From positions 62,001-126,000 of the forward strand of contig JABWCP010000008.1 of the NCBI GenBank assembly GCA_013360215.1: DNA of 64,000 nucleotides, read 5' to 3'. Positions 45,322 to 49,197 of this stretch are shown piece after piece. The notes under the pieces are model-generated. The model did no database searches and was not told the DNA's origin. It was given only the letters and a program-made list of their open reading frames with translations. The position numbers and the translations under genes are program-made. The DNA comes from a bacterium. GTDB lineage: Bacteria; CLD3; SB21. Within the stretch, counting starts at the first letter, position 1. Each line of letters starts with the position of its first letter.

Positions 45322-45864
45322 TTTTCTTAATATTTGATGGTTTAGTGTTCAATGCGTTTGTTTATAGATATGCTTTTACAATTAAAAAATATCAAAACAC
45401 TACAAAGCGTTCAACTTCTTTGGAATTTGATTTTAAATTATAAAATAAACTTTCGAACTTTTAATCGAAAAAACCAATCTCGCAGAGACGCAAAGCTAAA
45501 TACAAATCAGAATTCTTAGCGGCTTTGCGAGAGTATTCGGTTTGTATTGCGCGACGCTTCGCAATCTTAGTCGCTCATACGTCTATTGAGAGGCCAAGGT
45601 GATGTTGTTGTGTTGCGGGTAATAGGAGCTTTGAAATGAAATCTGCTTGTATGCTTTAACTTCTACTTGTTTCAAATATTAAGTTTCGACGGCTAATTGA
45701 ACGATATTTTTTTCTCTATTACAGACTATTTAAATCAACGAAGATTGTAAAAGCTCTTGACTTTCAAAATGAAATCGAATATGATGATCCATTGTTGTTT
45801 TCTAAAAAAACTCTAAGTATTACTAAGTCTCTCGGCAGTCAGATATTAACTAATGAGGTAATCT
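45322..45864. other. Intergenic region with repeat copy
   Basis: No convincing gene is present in these 543 bases. It contains the 78-bp repeat at 45478-45555, a 12-base word AGTCTCTCGGCA (45826-45837) that recurs inverted at 47185-47196, and a GAGG site just before the ATG at 45865. Confidence 0.6.
45478..45555. repeat. 78-bp direct repeat, copy 1 (GxxExxY-repeat family)
   Basis: All 78 bases are identical to 49261-49338. The first 18 (TCTCGCAGAGACGCAAAG) differ by one base from the ends of the GxxExxY units at 42 and 649. An inner GCGGCTTTGCGAGAG forms the inverted partner, so the unit is palindromic in outline. It bounds the lipoprotein cassette on the left. Confidence 0.9.
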
Positions 45865-47158
45865 ATGAATCAGCATCGTAAAATGTGGGGGGGGGGTAGC
45901 GCTTATTCTTGGGTTGTTTTTCACTTCCTGCGAAAAATCCAATCAAACTGCATCTGAAGTGAAATCCGACAAAGGAAATCTCTCCCGGCAGGACGCGCAT
46001 CTCTATCTTGAAAATTTATCCAAACAAATTGCTCTGAATGGCAATGCCGGCTCTCTATCTAAGTCTTTGTCCGTAACGGGAACGCCCTTTCTCGCCAAAA
46101 TAGCAAAACAAGGCCATGTGGCTATTGATGAAGTGACCGACGTTTCTTCAATTATTACAGTAGAAAATCAGTTACACGAAATTCGAATGGAAGTATTCAA
46201 TCCGCAAAAGGCGGAAGCTATGTCCAAAAGCGCGGCGGTAGCTTCCGGAGATTTATATGGCGTTTATGCGGATCCGATTGATTACTACGACGGCTCCTCT
46301 GATCATGTCAACTTCCCTGTTCAGATCGTATCTGTCAATAACGGAGAGTATTCAAGCCGCGAAGAAATATGGACTGCACCTTATTCCGCTGATATTGATC
46401 AAATTGATGACGAATTTAATCAATATATCAGCTCTCTACGCGAGAATACGCCGTATCCTTTGTACGCATTGACAATAGAAAATATCGAAGAAGACCCACA
46501 AGACGGAAATTTAAATAAAAGCGCGGCGGCCGGCCCGTATCTTGGATTTGAAGGAGTATATCTTAAAGTCGAACGGGATGGGTTGACGAATGAAGAGTTC
46601 GAATTGTGGTGGACTGAGCCGGCCGTATCAAACCTCATCCACAAACGCGATATGTTCAACGGTCATCATCACACGGATGAAAGCGGGGCCAATGTTTATT
46701 TTCCGGATGTCAATCACAAAGGAAACTGGGAACAACTCGGCGATGAGTTTACTACTCCGATCCGACTGATCAGCCTAGCCGACGGCATTGTCAAAGCTTT
46801 AACTCCGTGGGAAGATGATGCGACCGCAGGTAGCATGAAACGTTTTAATGATCATCCTGAACTCTATAACCCGGTAATTGATGGTGTACAAACCGGCGCA
46901 TGGGCTGATATCAAGAAATATGATGATGCGTTTAATTGCGAAACCAATATAGTAGATGACAATGTCGGATTACACTATCTGCTTGATGGTTTTACCGGAG
47001 CAGACGAAGACGATCCGTATTCCGAAGGCGCTGTATATCGTATCTCTGCTGTGAGTATATTTAACCGGGCACCCAATGGGGTAAGATTTGAAACAAATCA
47101 AGCTTTGAATCACGATCTTGATGATATCAACTATCGTTTCAATTACTATTCGAACTAA
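45865..47158 (+). pseudogene. Surface lipoprotein gene, out of frame at a G10 tract (probable phase variation)
   Basis: ATG 45865 follows a GAGG site. Its frame enters a run of ten Gs (45887-45896) and then leaves the protein frame. If the run had nine Gs (or six, or twelve), the frame would read MNQHRKMWGG followed by VALILGLFFTSC, a perfect lipoprotein signal, joining directly to the 414-residue frame that starts at 45914. The rest is intact and has no recognised family. It is rich in acidic residues, with FEGVYLKVERDG in the middle and FNRAPNGVRF near the end. This may be phase-variable expression by slippage or a sequencing indel. It is first in the cassette between the 78-bp repeats. Confidence 0.75.
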
Positions 47159-47223
47159 TAATTTATAATTTTGAATCAATCGGTTGCCGAGAGACTGATT
47201 TATTTAAAATTAACGGGACATGT

Positions 47224-48156
47224 ATGAAAAAATTAATCATTTGTTTGTTTTTCCCTTTGGCGATGTCCTGCCAATCGTGTTATAAAGAATATAATACAGA
47301 CTCCCGCCTTCAGGAAGAAAGGGATATCGTATTGAGCGTTTTAGCTCCGGACACGTCTAATGGGTTCATTCGGGAAAATGCCATCGAAGTTTTTGTGGGT
47401 AAGATCGTACCTACGGATATTCATAATAAATATTCCGTGTATGGTATGCAGGATTCGCTATTAAAAGAATTGATGATCAATACCCGGCAGTTTTACATCG
47501 CTTATTACAAATACGATCCCAACGCCATCGTCTCCATTGAAGGTAATGGTCAGAATGTTATTTTGGAATATACGGATCGTGGAATATACAGAGATATAAA
47601 TCGTAGCCTCAAAATCAAACCCTCCGCTCGGTACAAATTAAAAGTAAAAAAAAAGGATGGTCGAGTTTTCACGTCTGAAACAGTAATTCTGAATACTTTA
47701 TCAATTCAAAATGACTTTTCAGATACTGTATTGATCAAACCTTATCGAGAAGCCGGTTTGTTTTATGCAGATACAGTATTACTTAAATCAAGTACTTTGC
47801 TTAATGCAATTTATTATGTGTTTCAAGAGAAATCTAGTAATATTTCATTTTCGGTAAGCACTTATACATTCCAAAACAATGCTTATGACGCTGTAATATT
47901 CACTAAGAGTGAATTTGATACGACCCGAATAGACTTTGTTACAGTAAATTATGAATTCCGCGCCATAGATAGCGCATACGGCATGTTTCACCAGCCTCAC
48001 GGGCATAGTATGACAGCCGAATTTGGCGATTGGGATATTACCCTTTACGATATCCCCATCGAAAAACGCTCTAATATCAAAGGAAAAAATGTTGTCGGCG
48101 TATTTGGTAATTATTCCGCCGATCGAAAAAAAGTAACTTATAAAGCAGATTGGTGA
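47224..48156 (+). CDS. DUF4249-like lipoprotein
   Basis: The protein has 310 residues. A lipoprotein signal ends in FPLAMSCQSCY, so the Cys at about residue 16 is lipidated. The first strand motif RDIVLSVLAPDT and the repeated beta pattern through to KVKKKDGRVFTSE resemble DUF4249 proteins, which often sit beside TonB-dependent receptors. No receptor gene is nearby. It starts 66 bases after the preceding gene and ends 5 bases before the barrel gene. Confidence 0.6.
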   Translation: MKKLIICLFFPLAMSCQSCYKEYNTDSRLQEERDIVLSVLAPDTSNGFIRENAIEVFVGKIVPTDIHNKYSVYGMQDSLLKELMINTRQFYIAYYKYDPNAIVSIEGNGQNVILEYTDRGIYRDINRSLKIKPSARYKLKVKKKDGRVFTSETVILNTLSIQNDFSDTVLIKPYREAGLFYADTVLLKSSTLLNAIYYVFQEKSSNISFSVSTYTFQNNAYDAVIFTKSEFDTTRIDFVTVNYEFRAIDSAYGMFHQPHGHSMTAEFGDWDITLYDIPIEKRSNIKGKNVVGVFGNYSADRKKVTYKADW

Positions 48157-48160
48157 TTTT

Positions 48161-48691
48161 ATGAAAAAACTTATCCTTGTCTTACTTTTCAGTAGTATTT
48201 CATTGCAAGCGGTTGCTCAAGAAAATAACCGGGAACGTCCAAATATTATAATCGGAGCGGACGTTTCACCCTTAAGCCGTGGTTCCGGCACGGAAGATCA
48301 TTTTTTCATAGCCGGTAATTATCCTATTAACCAAAAAATCCATGTCGGTCTGAGTTATGGTTTTCTCGCGAAAGATGCGGTTTCGATCAATCACGAAAGA
48401 CTCCACCAAATCGGCAGTACCCTATGTTATCGTCTTGGACAATCGGGAAGTTTCCGGTTTTTTGCTAAGACGGATCTCAGTTTTTTTTATAAACCTGATG
48501 CCCAAAAGCTAATAGATAAGAGTTTCTTCAGGCATACCGTGGGTGGAGGAGTATGGACTCGACTGACGAACCGTTTTTTTCTGAATACAGAAATAAATAT
48601 TGGTGGTTTTTTCTATGGTCGCAATGAAGCCGTCAAATATCAATTTTATAATGCCGCTGACATAAAAGCAGGTATAGGGTTTCAGTTATGA
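48161..48691 (+). CDS. Small outer-membrane beta-barrel protein A
   Basis: The protein has 176 residues. The signal peptide ends near residue 20 (LQAVAQ). The mature part consists of alternating strands such as KIHVGLSYGFLAKDA and FRFFAKTDLSFFY, and ends ADIKAGIGFQL with the C-terminal hydrophobic residue typical of barrels. It is a paralogue of the next gene: both share an FFKTD(x)SFF strand, an FFRxTxGxG segment and a GFYYG/GFFYG strand. The stop overlaps the next start by 4 bases. Confidence 0.75.
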   Translation: MKKLILVLLFSSISLQAVAQENNRERPNIIIGADVSPLSRGSGTEDHFFIAGNYPINQKIHVGLSYGFLAKDAVSINHERLHQIGSTLCYRLGQSGSFRFFAKTDLSFFYKPDAQKLIDKSFFRHTVGGGVWTRLTNRFFLNTEINIGGFFYGRNEAVKYQFYNAADIKAGIGFQL

Positions 48692-49197
48692 AAAAAATTA
48701 TATTTTTTCTTCTACTATCCTATGCCGCATCAGCATTTTCGCAGGATTTGGGATGGCAGAGAGTTCGTTTGATCTGCGGCTCTGCGTGGTCATTTACATC
48801 CGGTGACGAATATTTATATACGACTATTCAAATTCCTGTTACAAAAAAAATATTTGTCGGGCTTTGTGGAGGATATCGGCCTCAAGATGTAAAAACCGTC
48901 CATGCGGATTTTACTGTGGGTTACGACTTGGTTACATCAGGACCCAACCGGTTATTTTTTAAAACAGATGGTTCTTTTTTCGTACGGGAAGGCAGTTTTA
49001 TTTTTGACGGACGTTTTTTTCGTCAAACAATAGGATTAGGCTACACATCGTTCATTCTTAAAAAAGTAGTTATAACGACAGAAGTAGCCTTTTTGGGATT
49101 CTACTATGGCAGTCGGAAGGATCCGCCACCGAGCAAAAGACATCCCTCAGTTTTTGGCGCCGGTGAGTTAAAAATAGGCATAGGTTATAAGTTTTAA
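48688..49197 (+). CDS. Small outer-membrane beta-barrel protein B
   Basis: The protein has 169 residues. Signal peptide to about residue 19 (AASAFSQ). Like protein A it has strands KKIFVGLCGGYRPQD and LFFKTDGSFFV, then FFRQTIGLGY and GFYYGSRK, and ends ELKIGIGYKF with a terminal Phe typical of outer-membrane barrels. The overlap with protein A and shared pattern indicate a tandem duplication. The two may form a matched pair. Confidence 0.75.
   Translation: MKKIIFFLLLSYAASAFSQDLGWQRVRLICGSAWSFTSGDEYLYTTIQIPVTKKIFVGLCGGYRPQDVKTVHADFTVGYDLVTSGPNRLFFKTDGSFFVREGSFIFDGRFFRQTIGLGYTSFILKKVVITTEVAFLGFYYGSRKDPPPSKRHPSVFGAGELKIGIGYKF

Follow-up and report, generated by a model that had tools for sequence, protein, structure and literature searches.

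Candidate poly-G phase variation in a pair of paralogous envelope lipoprotein genes of an uncultured bacterial lineage

Two paralogous genes for envelope lipoproteins in an uncultured bacterium (GTDB lineage CLD3; SB21) each carry, near the 5' end, a run of guanines that leaves the start codon and the body of the protein in different reading frames. The best explanation, and one we consider probable, is slipped-strand phase variation at these poly-G tracts, with both genes in the OFF state in the assembly. One gene lies in the window, by which we mean the whole 64,000-nucleotide stretch analyzed here (contig JABWCP010000008.1, positions 62,001 to 126,000); the other lies elsewhere in the same genome. 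A sequence-only reading of the window had proposed a switch at the first gene, and the anatomy, the OFF assignment and the lipoprotein signal on which it relied all stand; we infer that the tract slips, that slippage is reversible, and that some cells make the protein and expose it at their surface.

The window gene comprises the following elements.

45855 to 45858, forward strand: GAGG, a Shine-Dalgarno-like motif read in the sequence, 6 nt 5' of the ATG.
45865 to 45957, forward strand: the ATG frame as assembled (the OFF product), 30 codons, MNQHRKMWGGGSAYSWVVFHFLRKIQSNCI, then TGA.
45887 to 45896, forward strand: the G10 tract, proposed slipped-strand switch and sole G tract of at least 9 in the genome.
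45869 to 47158, forward strand: the lipoprotein body frame, 429 codons open, with no usable start before the signal's hydrophobic core.
45929 to 45931, forward strand: the lipobox cysteine codon (FFTS-C), read in the sequence.

The ten guanines, the ATG and the GAGG were found as claimed, and the reported one-base offset of the long frame was borne out. The distance from the ATG to the tract is 22 nt. The ATG frame closes early, encoding MNQHRKMWGGGSAYSW...NCI* with its stop codon at 45955-45957, and the body frame remains open; termination after 30 codons supports the view that the assembled copy is OFF. The earliest usual start (ATG, GTG or TTG) in the body frame is a TTG at 45914, within the hydrophobic core of the signal, and the 414-residue ORF beginning there would therefore lack a signal. 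An ATC at 45869 was considered as an in-frame start and rejected, as it is not a usual start codon and is overlapped by the ATG with its better-spaced Shine-Dalgarno motif.

Nine guanines had been said to restore a lipoprotein signal. This is correct, and it extends to any tract with a length divisible by three: frame arithmetic then fuses the ATG to ...GGVALILGLFFTSC-EKSN. Judged by inspection of this in-phase reading, the N terminus is a normal lipoprotein signal, with n-region MNQHRKMW, core GGVALILGLFF and lipobox TSC; as MNQHRKMW-GGVALILGLFFTS-C, it has the charged n-region, hydrophobic core and lipobox cysteine of a signal peptidase II substrate. The locus thus presents three hallmarks of phase variation: a homopolymer of at least 7 G (here G10) close to the 5' end of the coding region, unit length changes that toggle the full-length ORF (a stop after 30 codons versus a 429-codon open frame), and an intact downstream body of 414 codons without a stop.

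A search of the genome for relatives of the body protein identified four paralogs, giving five family members with the window gene. A comparison with other poly-G genes, which the sequence-only reading had advised, revealed that the paralog on contig C30 has a similar tract in the same place and with the same frame offset.

G000:C30:25836-25842: G7 tract of the paralog, with a Shine-Dalgarno sequence and ATG 43 nt upstream.

The ATG frame of this paralog begins MISILKTRKLAWNLR..., reaches the tract and is followed by VALALVLSFVAC, for which the window counterpart is VALILGLFFTSC. Spacing from the tract to the lipobox cysteine is identical in the two genes (V, 10 residues, C), and the C30 body frame runs 424 codons without a stop and is +1 relative to its ATG, as in the window gene. 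Each ATG frame contributes an n-region that contains K/R, as expected of a true signal. The two proteins share 28% identity over their matched part. Recent gene conversion of the 5' ends is not supported; alignment of the DNA found no homology beyond the tract and signal. In the other three paralogs, as well as in homologs from G002, G004, G005 and G006, a standard signal is in frame and the G tract is missing. A run of at least 7 G within about 75 nt 5' of the lipobox therefore characterizes 2/5 family members in the genome, where 0.0013 would be expected (P about 8e-7, if independent). The placement of the tracts in this lipoprotein family is not chance.

Comparison with the G002 ortholog, to which the window protein is 62% identical in amino acids, shows divergence falling mostly at third codon positions (0.32/0.20/0.58). 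This bias points to long-term purifying selection on the body, a conclusion that does not date the frameshift. In the G002 and G004 orthologs the tract is absent and the frame is continuous from the ATG. We found no Pfam relative of the lipoprotein body and no credible relative in the PDB, and structure prediction from two sequences reached a mean pLDDT of 35. Among GTDB contigs, a single-sequence query found no relatives and an alignment query found one related locus (L044). An Rfam search of the lipoprotein family loci returned nothing real.

The tract lipoprotein is the first gene of a four-gene operon, in which a second lipoprotein and two small outer-membrane proteins follow.

47224 to 48156, forward strand: gene 2, a lipoprotein that resembles DUF4249 and is not a member of it (25 bits, below the Pfam gathering score of 28.5 used as cut-off).
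48161 to 48691, forward strand: gene 3, an outer-membrane beta-barrel protein (PF13505), conserved in G002.
48688 to 49197, forward strand: gene 4, a second small barrel-like exported protein, conserved in G002.

Contig C59 of G002 keeps the gene order of the operon and G004 keeps its first two genes; in both, gene 1 is in frame and has no tract.

We counted G tracts throughout the genome (3.72 Mb, 56 contigs) and found 25 distinct tracts of at least 7, five of at least 8 and one of at least 9, along with about 110 exact G6 tracts. An independent-base expectation for tracts of at least 10 G is about 3 genome-wide. This figure is misleading because real G runs are depleted about nine-fold (25 tracts of at least 7 versus 224 expected); extrapolating the observed fall-off of tract counts gives roughly 0.2 tracts of at least 10 G, and length alone is therefore only mildly surprising. 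Within the window, the next-longest G/C runs after the tract of 10 measure 6. GGG accounts for 9% of glycine codons there, so runs of GGG are not a default codon choice. Exactly-G7 tracts number 7 to 19 per genome in four relatives, and since the total of 25 is similar in order, there is no genome-wide excess. In support of a switch, the genome's longest G tract is located where a change in length toggles a whole lipoprotein.

Many of the 25 tracts sit in envelope genes, which is the distribution expected of contingency loci. Such recurrence, a further hallmark of phase variation, is seen on contigs C30, C37 and C41 and in a polysaccharide cluster on C15. The lipoprotein signals at the genome's G tracts were identified by inspection. 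On C41, an in-frame G7 lies inside the lipobox region of a lipoprotein (LWIILCSGGSGC), and on C37 one lies just 3' of the cysteine. The C15 cluster (L089), composed of polysaccharide and glycosyltransferase genes at 37% GC, contains four tracts of G7-8 within 12.3 kb (4933, 12526, 15480 and 17253), where a post hoc count gives 0.08 expected; all four are in frame. On C4, a G8 occupies the Shine-Dalgarno position of an exported-protein gene (L091:2820), and a G7 is found at the same position of an exported-protein gene in G003 (L192:1502, contig C2). Length changes at these two sites would alter translation initiation. The only G9 of G003, which represents a sister genus, is found in a lipoprotein gene leader (L054:1466-1558, contig C22); it ends a 15-codon upstream ORF that has a strong Shine-Dalgarno sequence and lies just 5' of the lipoprotein gene.

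The reading frame is broken at 3/25 of the tracts of at least 7 G, namely those of the window lipoprotein, the C30 lipoprotein and a barrel protein on C13. When 60 exact-G6 tracts were sampled with their flanks, 47 sat deep within intact ORFs; the remaining 13 lay close to an ORF end or a contig end or between genes, and none of these showed a broken frame on inspection. Moreover, 151 kb of the genome contain 133 A/T runs of 7-10 inside intact ORFs. Because the 60 G6 tracts are unbroken and these A/T runs lie in intact ORFs, a general homopolymer error is unlikely. Assembly error and a fixed frameshift, the two outcomes that the sequence-only reading had named as fatal to a switch, are both made less likely. 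Among 30 G7 tracts in the four relatives, we found no clearly broken lipoprotein signal; at one locus in G004 (L182), a short lipoprotein-like ORF ends soon after its G7 tract.

The broken gene on C13 (L028:1342-2019) encodes an exported beta-barrel-like protein and is interrupted twice, first at a G7 and then at a T8; its ortholog in G004 (L102) is intact. We considered this gene as a third switch and rejected it on account of the second frameshift at the T8. It may be a pseudogene or a double tract, and a pseudogene is more likely than a switch.

In the switch that we propose, slipped-strand mispairing at replication would cause guanines to be gained or lost in the G10 tract. Whenever the number of guanines is divisible by three, ribosomes starting at the ATG at 45865 would read into the lipoprotein signal, and a 400-residue surface lipoprotein would be made and anchored (ON). 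Other lengths, including the assembled G10, would yield a 30-residue dead-end peptide, and the first protein of the four-gene envelope operon would be missing (OFF). The C30 paralog would carry the same switch, a G7 in the same place, and would also be OFF. Several observations count against switching. At G7, the C30 tract sits at the lower limit of hypermutable lengths. An identical OFF offset in the two copies is compatible with reversible switching and is not predicted by it. Finally, the total of tracts of at least 7 G is not above that of the relatives, and those of the C15 cluster preserve the frame.

Among the alternatives, the one that fares best is a recently fixed loss-of-function frameshift at a mutable G run, which would make these genes early pseudogenes with no regular switching back; we consider it unlikely. 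Orthologs lack the tract, which is therefore not an old conserved switch, and the C13 barrel gene, broken at G7 and T8 versus an intact G004 ortholog, demonstrates that homopolymer pseudogenes exist in this genome. However, the window gene retains 414 codons without any other lesion, two paralogs would need to have lost function at one and the same position and by an identical offset, and 0/60 of the sampled G6 tracts are broken.

Somewhat less probable is recoding, in which the +1 offset is constitutive and some protein is made through +1 ribosomal frameshifting or RNA-polymerase slippage on the G tract. Two diverged paralogs share the offset and its place, their tract lengths of 10 and 7 both being a multiple of three plus one, and homopolymers of at least 8 are typical sites of transcriptional slippage (PMC3711429). 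Yet there are two examples only, the orthologs are plainly in frame, and G7 is short for polymerase slippage. In addition, no stimulatory RNA structure was found near the tract (45815-45960), where the fold z-score is +1.75, less stable than shuffles. The authors of GeneTack use conservation of the site and offset to tell programmed shifts apart from phase variation (PMC3711429). Here the slippery site and offset are common to two paralogs only, being absent from all orthologs and the other paralogs, and two are too few to decide by that measure.

Least probable of the three, and in our view doubtful, is a tract length locally miscounted in sequencing or assembly, with the gene simply in frame: G10 is the genome's hardest homopolymer, but the frame is unbroken at the A/T runs of 7-10, at every one of the 60 G6 tracts sampled and at nearly all G7/G8 tracts, the few breaks are all in envelope genes with two in one small family, and a G9 in its stead would remain the genome's longest G tract in the same place.

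A second feature of the locus, a private inverted repeat, brackets the window gene.

45826 to 45837, forward strand: 5' arm of the repeat, AGTCTCTCGGCA.
47185 to 47196, forward strand: 3' arm of the same repeat, TGCCGAGAGACT, within an intergenic hairpin loop.

An exact inverted repeat of 11-17 nt brackets 5/5 genes of the closer clade: those of the window, C30, G002:C59, G002:C9 and G004:C56 (loci besides the window, L081, L082, L099 and L044). The 5' arm is 33-46 nt before the ATG and the 3' arm 11-34 nt past the stop. The sequences differ by locus, with arms matching over 11-17 nt within a locus and 5-9 across loci, and such lengths were reached by at most 4/2000 shuffles. No bracketing repeat was found at five more distant paralogs. 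The 3' arm lies in a hairpin loop in the window and G004, and less clearly so in the other loci. This maintained arm complementarity suggests either mRNA 5'-3' pairing, as in icaR, or a DNA-inversion segment; if the bracketed segment were invertible, the gene would have two switches. The repeat is possibly more novel than the G tract. A combined reading, to which we give as little credence as to a local error in tract length, would treat the shared +1 offset as constitutive poly-G recoding that limits lipoprotein amount and, with the leader/post-stop inverted repeat, as two-layer post-transcriptional control.

More distant paralogs carry a different element 5' of the lipoprotein ATG, a leader hairpin of ~80 nt of the form GGGAAG..ATATTACC..(inner stem)..GTAATAT..CTTCCC (L084, L092, L093, L096, L097, L098 and L099). 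It occurs also at L179, L177, L174, L178 and L180, and other exported proteins are among its carriers. The hairpin has 13 matches at E about 3e-4 or better in five genomes, and no Rfam match. In G002:C2 it precedes three small cysteine-rich genes (MGKKLKLKLEDLKVQSF...), the predicted products of which resemble RiPP precursors. Separately, the contig ends at L125, L137 and L162 (C14, C20 and C13) terminate in one common sequence of ~35 nt, TCTATCCAAAGGGGGGTACGATGTTGCTTCCGTTTCCC; the assembly is presumably interrupted there by a dispersed repeat or a CRISPR-like unit.

Most documented cases of poly-G phase variation come from host-adapted pathogens and commensals; HpuA of Neisseria meningitidis, considered below, is a lipoprotein. 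If slipped-strand switching does operate at the two lipoprotein genes, phase-variable envelopes are suggested in a little-studied uncultured lineage whose family comprises seven species-level genomes, and selection for a switching envelope would probably come from phages or grazers. A practical consequence is that gene callers will annotate tract lipoproteins without a signal or as broken.

Known systems offer parallels to both features of the locus. For the inverted repeat, the closest is 5'UTR-3'UTR pairing in icaR of Staphylococcus aureus, where the arms lie before the start and after the stop, as they do here (PMC3868564). In contrast to icaR, the 3' arm at our locus falls between operon genes, the arms are locus-specific and RNA pairing is a candidate only. 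For the G tract, hmbR and hpuA of N. meningitidis have poly-G inside the frames of outer-membrane proteins, as here (PMC3786947); unlike those receptors, the present lipoprotein belongs to a different protein family. The nearest counterpart is found in Campylobacter, where tracts are by convention counted from 7 G upward and most often measure 9G or 10G (PMC6321876). Every tract of at least 8 was seen to vary in C. jejuni NCTC 11168 (PMC6321876), and the poly-G switching rate in Campylobacter is near 1e-3 per division (PMC4965091). Our case differs in having one G10 plus shorter tracts, in family orthologs that have no tract, and in coming from an uncultured lineage. It shares with C. jejuni G runs on the coding strand toward the 5' end of envelope genes and lengths in the 9G/10G range, at which the reading frame decides between ON and OFF (PMC6321876, PMC4965091).
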